Origin: Rhizobium sp. Root483D2
Lineage (GTDB): Bacteria > Pseudomonadota > Alphaproteobacteria > Rhizobiales > Rhizobiaceae
Assembly: GCF_001426685.1 (NCBI RefSeq)
Contig: NZ_LMFB01000005.1
Location: forward strand, 190,773-254,772
Direction of reading: 5' to 3'
Length of the DNA: 64,000 bases
This document shows, piece after piece, positions 12,362 to 19,029 of this stretch. Position 1 is the first letter of the stretch; each line of letters begins with the position of its first letter. Position numbers and translations under genes: made by a program. The notes under the pieces were generated by a model. It had not been told where the DNA came from. It did not search any database and saw only the letters and a program-made list of their open reading frames with translations.

Positions 12362-13654
12362 TCACTCCGCGAAAAACGCGAAGCGGATGACGAAGAGGAT
12401 GGCGACGATGAGGGTGGCCGGGTGGATGGCGCGCCATTTGCCAGTGAACAGTTTGAGGACGACATAGCTGATGAAGCCGAAGGCGAGGCCGTTGGCGATC
12501 GAGTAGGTGAAGGGCATGGCAAGAGCCGTCAGCGCTGCCGGTGCGGCTTCGGTGAGGTCTTCCCAATCGACTTCGGTGAGCTCGCGCATCATCAGGCCGG
12601 CGACGTACAGCAGAGCCGGCGCCGTCGCATAGGTGGGCACGGAGGCCGCCAGCGGCGAGATGAACAATGCGGCAAGAAAGAGCAGCGAGATGACGAGGGC
12701 TGTGAGCCCCGTGCGGCCGCCGGCCTGAACACCGGACGCGCTTTCGACATAGGCCGTGGTGCTGCTGGTACCCATCAGCGAACCGGCGACGATGGCCGTG
12801 CTGTCGGCCAGAAGCGCGCGGCCAAGGCGGCTCGGTTGGCCTTCCTGGATCAGGTTGGCTCGCTTGGCGACGCCGATCAGCGTGCCCGTCGCGTCAAACA
12901 CTTCAACGAGAACGAAGACGAGGATGACATGGATCAGGCCGCCATGCAGGGCGCCGACAATGTCGAGCTGCAGGAAGGTCGGCGCCATGCTCGGCGGCAT
13001 CGAGACGACGCCCTGGAACTGGCTGACGCCGGTGACCCATGACAGCACCGTGACCGCCAGGATACCGATGAGGATCGCCCCCTTGACCCGCAATGCATCG
13101 AGCACCGCGATGACGAAGAAGCCGAAAATGGCGAGCAGCGGTCCGGTTTCCCTCAGGCTGCCGAGACCGACAAGCGTTGCCGGATTGTCGACGACGATGC
13201 CGGCATTCTTCAGGGCGATGATGCCGAGGAAGAGGCCGATACCGGTGGCGATCGCGCTGCGCAGCGAATGCGGGATGCCCTGGATCAGCCAGCTGCGGAT
13301 ACCGGTGACCGTCAGGAAGACGAAGATCAGGCCCGAGATGAAGACCGCGCCGAGCGCCTGTTGCCAGGTGAAGCCGAGGGCGGCAACGACGGTAAAGGCG
13401 AAAAACGCGTTGAGGCCCATGCCGGGCGCCATGCCGATCGGCCAGTTGGCGACCAGCGCCATGACGATCGAGCCGAGTGCGGCGGCCAGACAGGTGGCGA
13501 CGAAGATCGCGTCGCGATCCATGCCGGTGGTCGACAGGATGTCGGGATTGACGAAGATGATATACGACATCGTGAGAAATGTCGTGACGCCCGCCACCAG
13601 TTCGGTGCGGATCGTGGTATTGTGCTCACTCAGCTTGAAGAGCCGTTCAAACAT
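12362..13654 (-). CDS. AzgA-type NCS2 purine permease (guanine/hypoxanthine family)
   Basis: The 430-aa protein is an inner-membrane purine:proton symporter with about 12-14 hydrophobic segments. It starts MFERLFKLSEHNTTIRTELVAG-like and has family segments FLTMSYIIFVNPDIL, APGMGLNAFFAF, LVEVFDATGTL and GTSSTTAYVESASG, typical of the AzgA/PbuG branch. The ATG at 13654 follows GGGAGG; longer upstream in-frame sequence is leader, not coding. Import of guanine or hypoxanthine would supply GuaD and XDH. The leader between this start and the shared element at 13891 is unusually structured (see the 13659-13812 entry). Confidence 0.93.
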   Translation of the reverse strand: MFERLFKLSEHNTTIRTELVAGVTTFLTMSYIIFVNPDILSTTGMDRDAIFVATCLAAALGSIVMALVANWPIGMAPGMGLNAFFAFTVVAALGFTWQQALGAVFISGLIFVFLTVTGIRSWLIQGIPHSLRSAIATGIGLFLGIIALKNAGIVVDNPATLVGLGSLRETGPLLAIFGFFVIAVLDALRVKGAILIGILAVTVLSWVTGVSQFQGVVSMPPSMAPTFLQLDIVGALHGGLIHVILVFVLVEVFDATGTLIGVAKRANLIQEGQPSRLGRALLADSTAIVAGSLMGTSSTTAYVESASGVQAGGRTGLTALVISLLFLAALFISPLAASVPTYATAPALLYVAGLMMRELTEVDWEDLTEAAPAALTALAMPFTYSIANGLAFGFISYVVLKLFTGKWRAIHPATLIVAILFVIRFAFFAE

Positions 13655-13658
13655 ATTT

Positions 13659-13812
13659 CCTCCCTTGGCCGGAAAAATCCATTCCCGGCGCATGCCAATG
13701 GCCAAGCCGCCTTCTCCTCTGGCGGCAAGCCAAACTGTACCGATCTTCAAGCCATCATGGCTCGTCAGGGCCCCTGCCCGATCAGTCTCCGGCCGCCATG
13801 ATGGCAGGCCGG
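13659..13812 (-). promoter_or_regulatory. Structured 5' leader of the purine permease, switch-like fold over the ribosome site
   Basis: Reading the minus-strand transcript 5' to 3': CCGGCC/GGCCGG arms (13812-13807 with 13794-13789), an 11-bp perfect inverted repeat (13805-13795 with 13761-13751), and hairpin A (13732-13699). Hairpin A has a 6-bp GGCGGC/GCCGCC stem, a small AA/AA internal loop and a 4-bp base. The segment 13706-13700 (CUUGGCC) inside hairpin A is also perfectly complementary to 13670-13664 (GGCCAAG), which abuts the GGGAGG ribosome site. The two pairings exclude each other, as in a translational switch. A xanthine/urate-type riboswitch is possible but unproven. Confidence 0.45.
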
Positions 13813-13890
13813 ATGTCTCATTCACGGTTTTATGATTGTGCGTTTTCGCGCGGCAGATCGCTAGCCGTCCATTTCGACGCCGCGAGCGAA

Positions 13891-13910
13891 AGACTTTCAA
13901 ATTTTTCGGG
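13891..13910. promoter_or_regulatory. Purine-cluster shared element, copy 3
   Basis: AGACTTTCAAATTTTTCGGG shares ten identical starting bases with 9591-9600 and the core ACTTTCAAA with 3128-3136. It lies about 240 bp upstream of the permease start, in the 393-bp gap to the Lrp gene. Only the left half of the palindrome seen at 9596-9609 is kept. The rest of the gap (13911-14047) shows nothing I recognise. Confidence 0.5.
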
Positions 13911-14047
13911 GGACAGTTTGGTGAGCCATATCGCCCGCTTGGCGGAATACTTGCGCGATTTTCGCCGTATCGGCGGCAAGACCGGCGGAAATGCCGTCAC
14001 TTTCCTGCTCCTCATTGTGTGAGCCTTCGCAGCAAAGTCAAGCAAGG

Positions 14048-14482
14048 TCAGCTGCGTTCGATATCGCGGCGCAGAACGATCGATGTGGTGAGGTCATCGA
14101 CATTGTCCATCGTTGCCACTTCGTTTCTCAACTCGTTCAGCGCGTTGATGGAGCCGACTTCGACCTCGACGACGAGATCGAGCTGGCCGCTGACTGAGGA
14201 CACCTTGCGCACGGAGGAGAAGCCCGCCAGCCGGTCGAGCACCCCGATGGAGGGCGTCTTTTTCAGCGTCAAAAGCAGGAAGGCATGCACCTGGCCCTCG
14301 TCCAGCTGGCCGATATCGGCCCTGTAGCCGCGGATGATCCCGGCCTTTTCCAGCCGGTTGACGCGCTCGGTCGTCGCACTCCTGGAAAGCCCGATGCGGC
14401 CTGCCAGAGACTTCATCGGGATGCGCGCCTCGCGCGACAGGATGCTGAGAATCGTGCGGTCGATCGCGTCTGTGTCCTGCAT
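14048..14482 (-). CDS. Lrp/AsnC-family transcriptional regulator
   Basis: The 144-aa protein has an N-terminal HTH (DRTILSILSREARIPMKSLA, then GLSRSATTERVNRLEKAGII) and a C-terminal RAM ligand-binding domain (AFLLLTLKKT, SVSGQLDLVVEVEV). The ATG at 14482 is used. It is divergent from the three-domain kinase/PLP fusion gene across a 128-bp gap with a perfect 8-bp dyad. Lrp-type regulators next to amino-acid catabolic genes usually sense the substrate, so it probably controls 14611-18777. The ligand is unknown. Confidence 0.9.
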   Translation of the reverse strand: MQDTDAIDRTILSILSREARIPMKSLAGRIGLSRSATTERVNRLEKAGIIRGYRADIGQLDEGQVHAFLLLTLKKTPSIGVLDRLAGFSSVRKVSSVSGQLDLVVEVEVGSINALNELRNEVATMDNVDDLTTSIVLRRDIERS

Positions 14483-18871: not shown

Positions 18872-19029
18872 CGAAAAAGCCTGCCGCGGGAGGAGGTGCG
18901 GCAGGCTTTCGAATAAAACCGAACGGCAACTGGGAGGAGGAGTGTTGCCATTCCGCAAGTGCCCTCTGGGAGGAGGAGTGAGGCCACTTACATATCGAAG
19001 CTCTGCGGGAGGAGGTGCATCACTTCGAT
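18872..19029 (-). ncRNA. Anti-Shine-Dalgarno hairpin sRNA (four CCUCCUCCC loops)
   Basis: The minus strand encodes four successive hairpins whose loops all present CCUCCUCCC. Their arms are 19029-19023/19000-18994 (7 bp), 18988-18980/18966-18958 (9 bp, one mismatch), 18949-18944/18930-18925 (6 bp) and 18909-18898/18887-18876 (12 bp perfect). The last is followed by U5 and so doubles as the terminator. A TATATT box sits just upstream of the first stem. Alphaproteobacteria are known to carry sRNAs of this design (CcsR, ar14/ar15-like and cuckoo RNAs) with an exposed anti-SD motif. It fills the 430-bp gap between 18777 and 19208, and no protein-coding signal is seen there. Confidence 0.85.

Follow-up and report, generated by a model that had tools for sequence, protein, structure and literature searches.

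A GGAGGAG-loop hairpin kept in purine permease leaders of Rhizobiaceae: a tentative docking site for anti-Shine-Dalgarno sRNAs

Introduction

Which regulatory element is carried by the leader of the purine permease gene in this window (i.e., the whole stretch of 64,000 nucleotides analysed here, part of a 6.04 Mb genome)? A preliminary description, made from the letters of the stretch, had drawn this leader as a two-state RNA with two mutually exclusive stems, one of them touching the ribosome site, and had suggested that it may belong to the xanthine (NMT1) riboswitches or to a new ligand-sensing class. In Proteobacteria, genes for the transport and oxidation of purines are those with which the xanthine riboswitch (NMT1 motif, RF03054) is associated (PMC7373994); the present leader shares both this gene setting and this bacterial group. 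The comparison of related leaders leads to another answer. It illustrates that a plausible two-state switch drawn from one sequence can vanish on comparison, and that a different, stronger element can emerge.

Results and Discussion

The permease gene and its promoter region

The features of the locus are collected in Table 1. Pfam places the permease in Xan_ur_permease, NCBIfam assigns no family to the gene, and the name AzgA is a label inherited from the preliminary description. In the vicinity of the gene are xdhA, hydroxyisourate hydrolase, a puuE/uraD fusion and ureidoglycolate lyase; the setting is thus that of purine oxidation, as had been proposed. A blastn comparison of the leader with a 900 kb record of Pararhizobium qamdonense (NZ_CP119567.1) gives 99.5% over 188 bases, and the features annotated under the match are a hypothetical protein and an NCS2 family permease. 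The permease gene is present in 22/26 genomes of the genus (it is lacking in G012, G015, G018 and G023). In one genome (G013, leaders L022 and L028) the gene match is split into two pieces that overlap; the gene may be broken there, although its leader is kept. It must be noted that a gene for an Lrp/AsnC family regulator (14482-14048, minus strand) is localized directly upstream of the permease promoter region.

Table 1. Coordinates of the features discussed in the text (positions in the window).
Feature	Position	Strand	Basis and remarks
Purine permease gene, NCS2 / Xan_ur_permease family	12362..13654	-	Pfam PF00860, E 3.8e-54; start codon at 13654
Shine-Dalgarno sequence GGGAGG of the permease gene	13659..13664	-	Sequence; predicted opening cost of GGGAGGA 0.6 kcal/mol
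Terminal hairpin, immediately preceding the ribosome site	13668..13689	-	RNAalifold helix; double changes at 3 pairs, 19 sequences
GGAGGAG-loop hairpin (AGAGGAG here)	13699..13732	-	Loop 13720-13712; stems 13726-13721/13711-13706 and 13732-13728/13703-13699
Genus-specific 5' RNA domain, about 90 nt	13739..13828	-	Hairpin P0, stem P3 (GGGC/GCCC), covarying stem P4
Stem-loop P4 of the 5' domain	13748..13764	-	Pairs in 18/18 sequences, 100% of cells; double changes at two pairs (6 and 4 sequences)
Hairpin P0 (TCCGGCC/GGCCGGA)	13788..13813	-	Arms 13788-13794 and 13807-13813; 94-97% of cells paired
-10-like element CGCACAAT	13835..13842	-	Kept upstream of the permease in several genera
Palindromic block TTGAAAGTCTTTCGC upstream of the permease	13886..13900	-	Sole window match at up to 3 mismatches
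ar14 (NfeR1-like) sRNA gene, candidate trans partner	18872..18995	-	Rfam RF02344, 104.3 bits

Judged from the sequence, transcription of the permease gene probably starts near 13829. GCACAAT or a near form is found upstream of the GGAGGAG motif described below in 27/28 non-redundant leaders, and such a -10 element would place the start upstream of the first stem of the preliminary description, in agreement with it. The block TTGAAAGTCTTTCGC, or a block judged similar by eye, occurs in the leaders of several Rhizobiaceae genera. This palindrome is likely a regulator site. In a promoter whose -35 is weak, TTGAAAGTCTTTCGC would perhaps have this role and CGCACAAT that of the -10 element.

The leader fold and the two-state switch

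Folding predicts a structured RNA for the leader of the permease gene (about 13829-13655 on the minus strand): the segment 13830-13640 reaches -84.2 kcal/mol vs. a shuffle mean of -67.9 (z -3.74) and beats 200/200 dinucleotide shuffles. The preliminary description was correct on this point, and its letters and coordinates are accurate: CUUGGCC (13706-13700) and GGCCAAG (13670-13664) form a perfect 7-nt inverted repeat, the second arm touching GGGAGG (13664-13659). This repeat is one of 13 inverted repeats of at least 7 nt found in 421 bases. The 11-bp perfect repeat that had been reported is also present (GCCATCATGGC/GCCATGATGGC at 13751-13761 and 13795-13805). As one RNA helix it was rejected: its arms are localized in two separate local hairpins and its letters differ in most relatives.

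The two stems of the proposed switch were compared in an alignment of 19 leaders of the genus with a common layout; the leaders of G009, G014 and G017 (L018, L019 and L021), which diverge in their upstream portion, were not included. The first hairpin (13732-13699, Table 1) is real. In the 12 of these 19 leaders that make up alignment A4 of same-genus sequences, 95.1% of cells pair; with a single double change, covariation in this set does not exceed that of shuffles. All 7 pairs of the second stem (13706-13700 with 13670-13664), which excludes the first, are present in only 2/19 leaders, both from the species of the window. This second stem keeps 6/7 pairs in L008, L009, L012 and L022 and at most 5 in the other 13 leaders, with a minimum of 2/7 in L007 and L017, for a total of 85/133 paired cells. 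The two-state switch as drawn is thus no conserved feature: its first stem stands, and its second stem fails the conservation test that the preliminary description had itself proposed. As to other candidates for mutually exclusive stems, the alternative closures of the 5' domain described below show too little variation among relatives, or the relatives fold in different ways.

Riboswitch classes

The membership in the xanthine/NMT1 class that had been suggested is not supported by the Rfam scan, since none of 4227 families reaches its gathering score in the leader. Seven weak matches (E up to 10) are found in 13300-14300 and Xanthine is not among them; the match overlapping the leader end is Fluoride, at 13.5 bits vs. 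a cut-off of 34. In the whole genome the best score of RF03054 is 15.8 bits vs. a cut-off of 36, on another contig, in a search that has no positive control since the control genomes also all stay below the cut-off. In 20 of the 59 leader loci of the family, Rfam gives a single chance-level match in all. The leader thus differs from the xanthine riboswitch, despite the likeness of gene setting, by having no match itself and none over the cut-off in its genome, and xanthine or any other Rfam riboswitch was rejected on these scores.

A 5' domain restricted to one genus

Between the putative transcription start and the hairpin 13732-13699, the leader contains a 5' domain whose length is 81-92 nt across 19 genomes. 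Eighteen sequences were aligned (alignment A2), L110 being omitted as a same-species duplicate. P4 pairs in all of them (Table 1); P3 has two pairs broken in L012 and one in L010; P0 evolves fast (it is about 10 nt shorter in L017) and the letters that surround it are near-invariant. The covariation score of the whole structure is above 500/500 shuffles, a result to be read with care as kinship alone can exceed shuffles without structure. Three pairs show a double change, a number reached by 121 and 104 of 500 shuffles, so there is no excess. The closure of the junction is variable in the predictions: (i) the local stem CUGAUC/GAUCGG has a probability of 0.98 in this species and near zero in several relatives; (ii) the long-range stem given by RNAalifold never exceeds 0.16; (iii) a third pairing, AUGAG/CUGAU, reaches 0.80 in L017.

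A covariance model of the domain (R1) finds one match per genome, before the permease, in 19/26 genomes of the genus (E <= 6.3e-20). Five further matches, at E 0.5 to 0.92, were taken as chance, and the four genomes without the permease gene (named above) give no match. In the family sample, searched with stricter filters, a match at E <= 0.01 is obtained in 5/297 genomes; these five belong to the genus, and the other 292 family genomes give none. Among 88 loci searched locally, five strong matches were obtained, again all from this genus, with three more at E 0.66 to 6.4; three members of the genus, and the other genera among these loci, have permease leaders that lack the domain. A spread of the domain to other genes was looked for in the genus and family genomes and in the 88 loci, and none was found. 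The matches being before one gene in one genus, the 5' domain is an extra structured module joined to the leader in that genus, and not a spread riboswitch class.

Could this module be a new metabolite-sensing riboswitch, i.e., a 90-nt domain that binds a purine-related ligand and alters the downstream hairpins? The near-invariant letters outside the predicted stems beside the fast-evolving P0, the covarying P4, a beginning at the putative transcription start and the purine-oxidation genes near the permease all speak for it. An aptamer found before several genes or lineages is a usual, though not strictly required, trait of riboswitches, and R1 corresponds to one gene and one genus. Together with the absence of the domain from three genus members and from other genera, the lack of excess of double-change pairs, a predicted junction closure ranging from 0.00 to 0.98 between relatives and a switch stem that is not kept (2/19), this makes a new riboswitch the least probable of the readings considered here.

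The GGAGGAG motif and its distribution

The collection comprised 162 leaders: the genus and its near relatives gave 23, contigs of named genomes 80, and additional genomes of the family 59, many genomes being represented twice. Once redundancy was removed, 82 leaders were left. In the range of about -160 to -25, GGAGGAG ranks first among the 7-mers, with 23/82 leaders; over 200 mononucleotide shuffles it averages 1.3 with a maximum of 5, the maximum for any 7-mer being 13. It is found in Pararhizobium, Rhizobium, Sinorhizobium/Ensifer, Shinella and Phyllobacterium, and it is absent from the Brucella, Ochrobactrum, Bordetella, Achromobacter and Labrys leaders as well as from one Phyllobacterium leader (L065). 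The window's own leader has AGAGGAG instead. In one lineage of the window's genus (leaders L014 and L032) the motif is missing, and so are the variants that were looked for. Outside the genus, 17/60 permease-carrying genomes of the family sample have GGAGGAG, at -62 to -160.

Overall the motif occupies positions -60 to -174, i.e., about 60-68 nt before the start codon and 126-174 nt in some lineages; the spacing to the start codon is thus not the constraint. In the leaders of the S. fredii group (L050-L052), about 100 nt of extra sequence is present between the GGAGGAG hairpin (-160 to -174) and the ribosome site.

A fixed loop on a variable stem

The hairpin was analysed in 28 of the non-redundant leaders; the 7-mer is exact in 24 of them and replaced by a close variant in 4 (L001, L007, L012 and L021; the near-variant leaders L073, L093 and L107 were not taken). 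The other 54/82 leaders, which do not have the exact 7-mer, were outside these tests. For each site the motif and 18 nt on each side were folded, and the flanks were shuffled. Compared with the flank shuffles, the 28 hairpins have a mean z of -1.92 for energy (Stouffer -10.2) and of +1.31 for enclosing pairs (Stouffer +6.9), values that overstate independence since the leaders are related. The motif is mostly unpaired inside the hairpin in 26/28 cases (93%) vs. 18% of the 168 control sites taken from these leaders, and motif and control sites differ for all three measures (rank test, p < 1e-6), with the same reservation on relatedness.

The stem sequences differ strongly between genera and the GGAGGAG loop is kept. 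Within clades the pairs are kept in 95.1% and 89.7% of cells, with no more double changes than in shuffles. RNAalifold finds no consensus structure in the cross-genus MAFFT alignment (A3), in which the unlike stems are misaligned; the model R2 made from the cross-genus alignment had no pairs and was not used, and the Sinorhizobium hairpin alignment, being out of register, was not counted. The motif is predicted to have its last letters paired in the stem in leaders of Rhizobium and Shinella, with opening costs of 4.9, 7.2 and 5.2 kcal/mol for L056, L060 and L035, respectively, and L060 folds otherwise without constraint. It is well supported that the GGAGGAG-loop hairpin is kept across Rhizobiaceae while its stem turns over, a claim limited by the scarcity of double changes within clades and by the lack of a common structure in the cross-genus alignment. 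A limited search of the open-licence literature gave no published description of this hairpin.

An ordinary folded 5' UTR, without specific binder and kept for mRNA stability or for an open ribosome site, would be in line with the stable fold and with a terminal hairpin that ends next to a ribosome site left nearly open. It leaves unexplained why the GGAGGAG loop is fixed when the stems differ from genus to genus, and it appears improbable, only the riboswitch above being more so.

Hairpins bound by proteins often look like this one, with a loop of seven fixed letters on a variable stem. An RNA-binding protein, e.g., Hfq or a purine-responsive factor, could then read the GGAGGAG loop; Hfq binds A-R-N repeats. 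CsrA is a well known reader of GGA loops, and the present hairpin resembles CsrA/RsmA targets in having such a loop upstream of a ribosome site. However, the CsrA gene was found in 0/25 genomes, the three positive controls (E. coli, B. subtilis and T. maritima) being detected; this separates the hairpin from the CsrA/RsmA targets, and CsrA was rejected as the loop binder. Protein binding in general is held to be quite unlikely, slightly less so than the ordinary 5' UTR.

Ribosome site or seed complement?

GGAGG is the core of the Shine-Dalgarno sequence, and ribosome standby sites are known as unpaired Shine-Dalgarno-like letters upstream of a start codon. The hairpin has this property (its GGAGG is mostly unpaired in 26/28 sites) and in the predicted fold of the present leader the ribosome site is nearly free. 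The loop could thus be a ribosome standby or decoy site, where GGAGG binds the 16S tail and feeds 30S subunits to the ribosome site or withholds them from it. The letters that follow GGAGG are not explained by this reading. The 16S tail would favour GGAGGUG. At upstream positions (-200 to -28, 82 leaders) GGAGG is followed by AG in 24/41 cases and by UG in 0/41, and at ribosome sites by AG in 6/57. It must be noted that a count of AG in 27/28 is circular, the sites having been picked by the 7-mer or by named variants, and that the fair count is 24/41 vs. 6/57. The excess of AG and the lack of UG fit a CUCCUCC seed better than the 16S tail. Besides the kept AG, the distance to the start codon, variable from 60 to 174 nt, distinguishes the hairpin from a standby site, and a start codon at Shine-Dalgarno spacing follows the motif in 8/28 leaders vs. 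a background of 36%. The standby reading is therefore considered unlikely, although less so than protein binding. Since start codons after the motif are not above background (the same 8/28 vs. 36%), an upstream reading frame is not supported, and a leader-peptide attenuator was rejected.

GGAGGAG is the exact complement of CUCCUCC, the seed of the alpha-rhizobial sRNAs AbcR and NfeR1. AbcR1/2 are described with CUCCUCCC in the loop of a 5' hairpin, their targets are mostly mRNAs of transport or metabolic proteins and their interactomes are reported to span 6% of S. meliloti protein-coding genes (PMC8844928); NfeR1 has three CCUCCUCCC motifs (PMC10746234). The words purine, xanthine, guanine and azgA are absent from the main text of the AbcR target paper (PMC8844928).

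The genome contains five matches to ar15 (AbcR) and five to ar14. CUCCUCC is present in 2/5 ar15 copies and absent from three; the ar14 gene of the window (Table 1) also has the seed. The stretch of this ar14 gene (19015-18885) contains four CCUCCUCCC copies, the Rfam match beginning right after one of them. In the family, ar15 is present in 57/60 and ar14 in 59/61 genomes with the permease, with or without the motif; as both are nearly everywhere, their co-occurrence with the motif gives no support.

The full 7-mer complementary to the seed is found in 24/28 leaders. In the predicted fold, two accessible seed complements are present in the leader, i.e., the loop, with 6 seed pairs in this species, and the ribosome site. 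The predicted duplex in this species is stronger at the ribosome site (-13.2 kcal/mol) than at the loop (-10.7 kcal/mol), and the net predicted energy is better at the loop in 7/15 other leaders (15 computed of 28).

The leader resembles the targets of AbcR1/2 (ar15) and NfeR1 (ar14) by (i) the transport function of its mRNA, (ii) its complement of CUCCUCC, (iii) the presence of the sRNA genes and (iv) a G-rich ribosome site that is also complementary. It differs by the site: the tested pairings considered here (SMc03121, SMa0495, ntrB) are at the translation initiation region, whereas here the best-conserved complement is the loop of an upstream hairpin.

The reading preferred here, tentatively and at somewhat less than an even chance, is that the GGAGGAG loop is a docking site for the anti-Shine-Dalgarno sRNAs AbcR1/2 and NfeR1. 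The permease mRNA, presumably starting near 13829, would have a structured leader whose core is a hairpin with unpaired GGAGGAG followed by a second hairpin ending beside an open ribosome site. The CUCCUCC seeds of AbcR1/2 and NfeR1 would pair with the loop and also with the ribosome site GGGAGG. In this way the sRNA, and not direct ligand sensing, would adjust purine uptake to the nitrogen or carbon status. The loop might either aid repression or serve as a decoy shielding the ribosome site. The motif, its placement in a loop, its conservation and the seed-bearing sRNA genes are observed, and from them we infer pairing in cells and an effect on expression.

A more specific form of sRNA docking is rather doubtful. 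In it the hairpin would be a dedicated module, upstream of the ribosome site and distinct from it, whose loop pairs with the loops of anti-Shine-Dalgarno sRNAs and so recruits or titrates them; it would act in cis as a landing pad or as a decoy. The stem would then be free to change while the 7-nt seed complement is held, and one genus would have added the 5' domain.

To our knowledge it is not settled how such sRNAs discriminate between purine-rich ribosome sites. If a conserved upstream hairpin shows them an exact complement of their seed, a rule open to test would follow, i.e., dock-then-block or dock-instead-of-block, and sRNA docking at the permease leader would link purine uptake to the sRNA network of nutrient status.

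The two-site pattern GGAGGAG..GGAGG..ATG is not unique to the permease, being found in 17/25 genomes at several places each. Near-identical copies of GGAGGAGAGTT..GGAGGAG..ATG are present in three genomes of the genus (G008:C25:113342-113402, G009:C42:153164-153224 and G014:C3:138514-138574).
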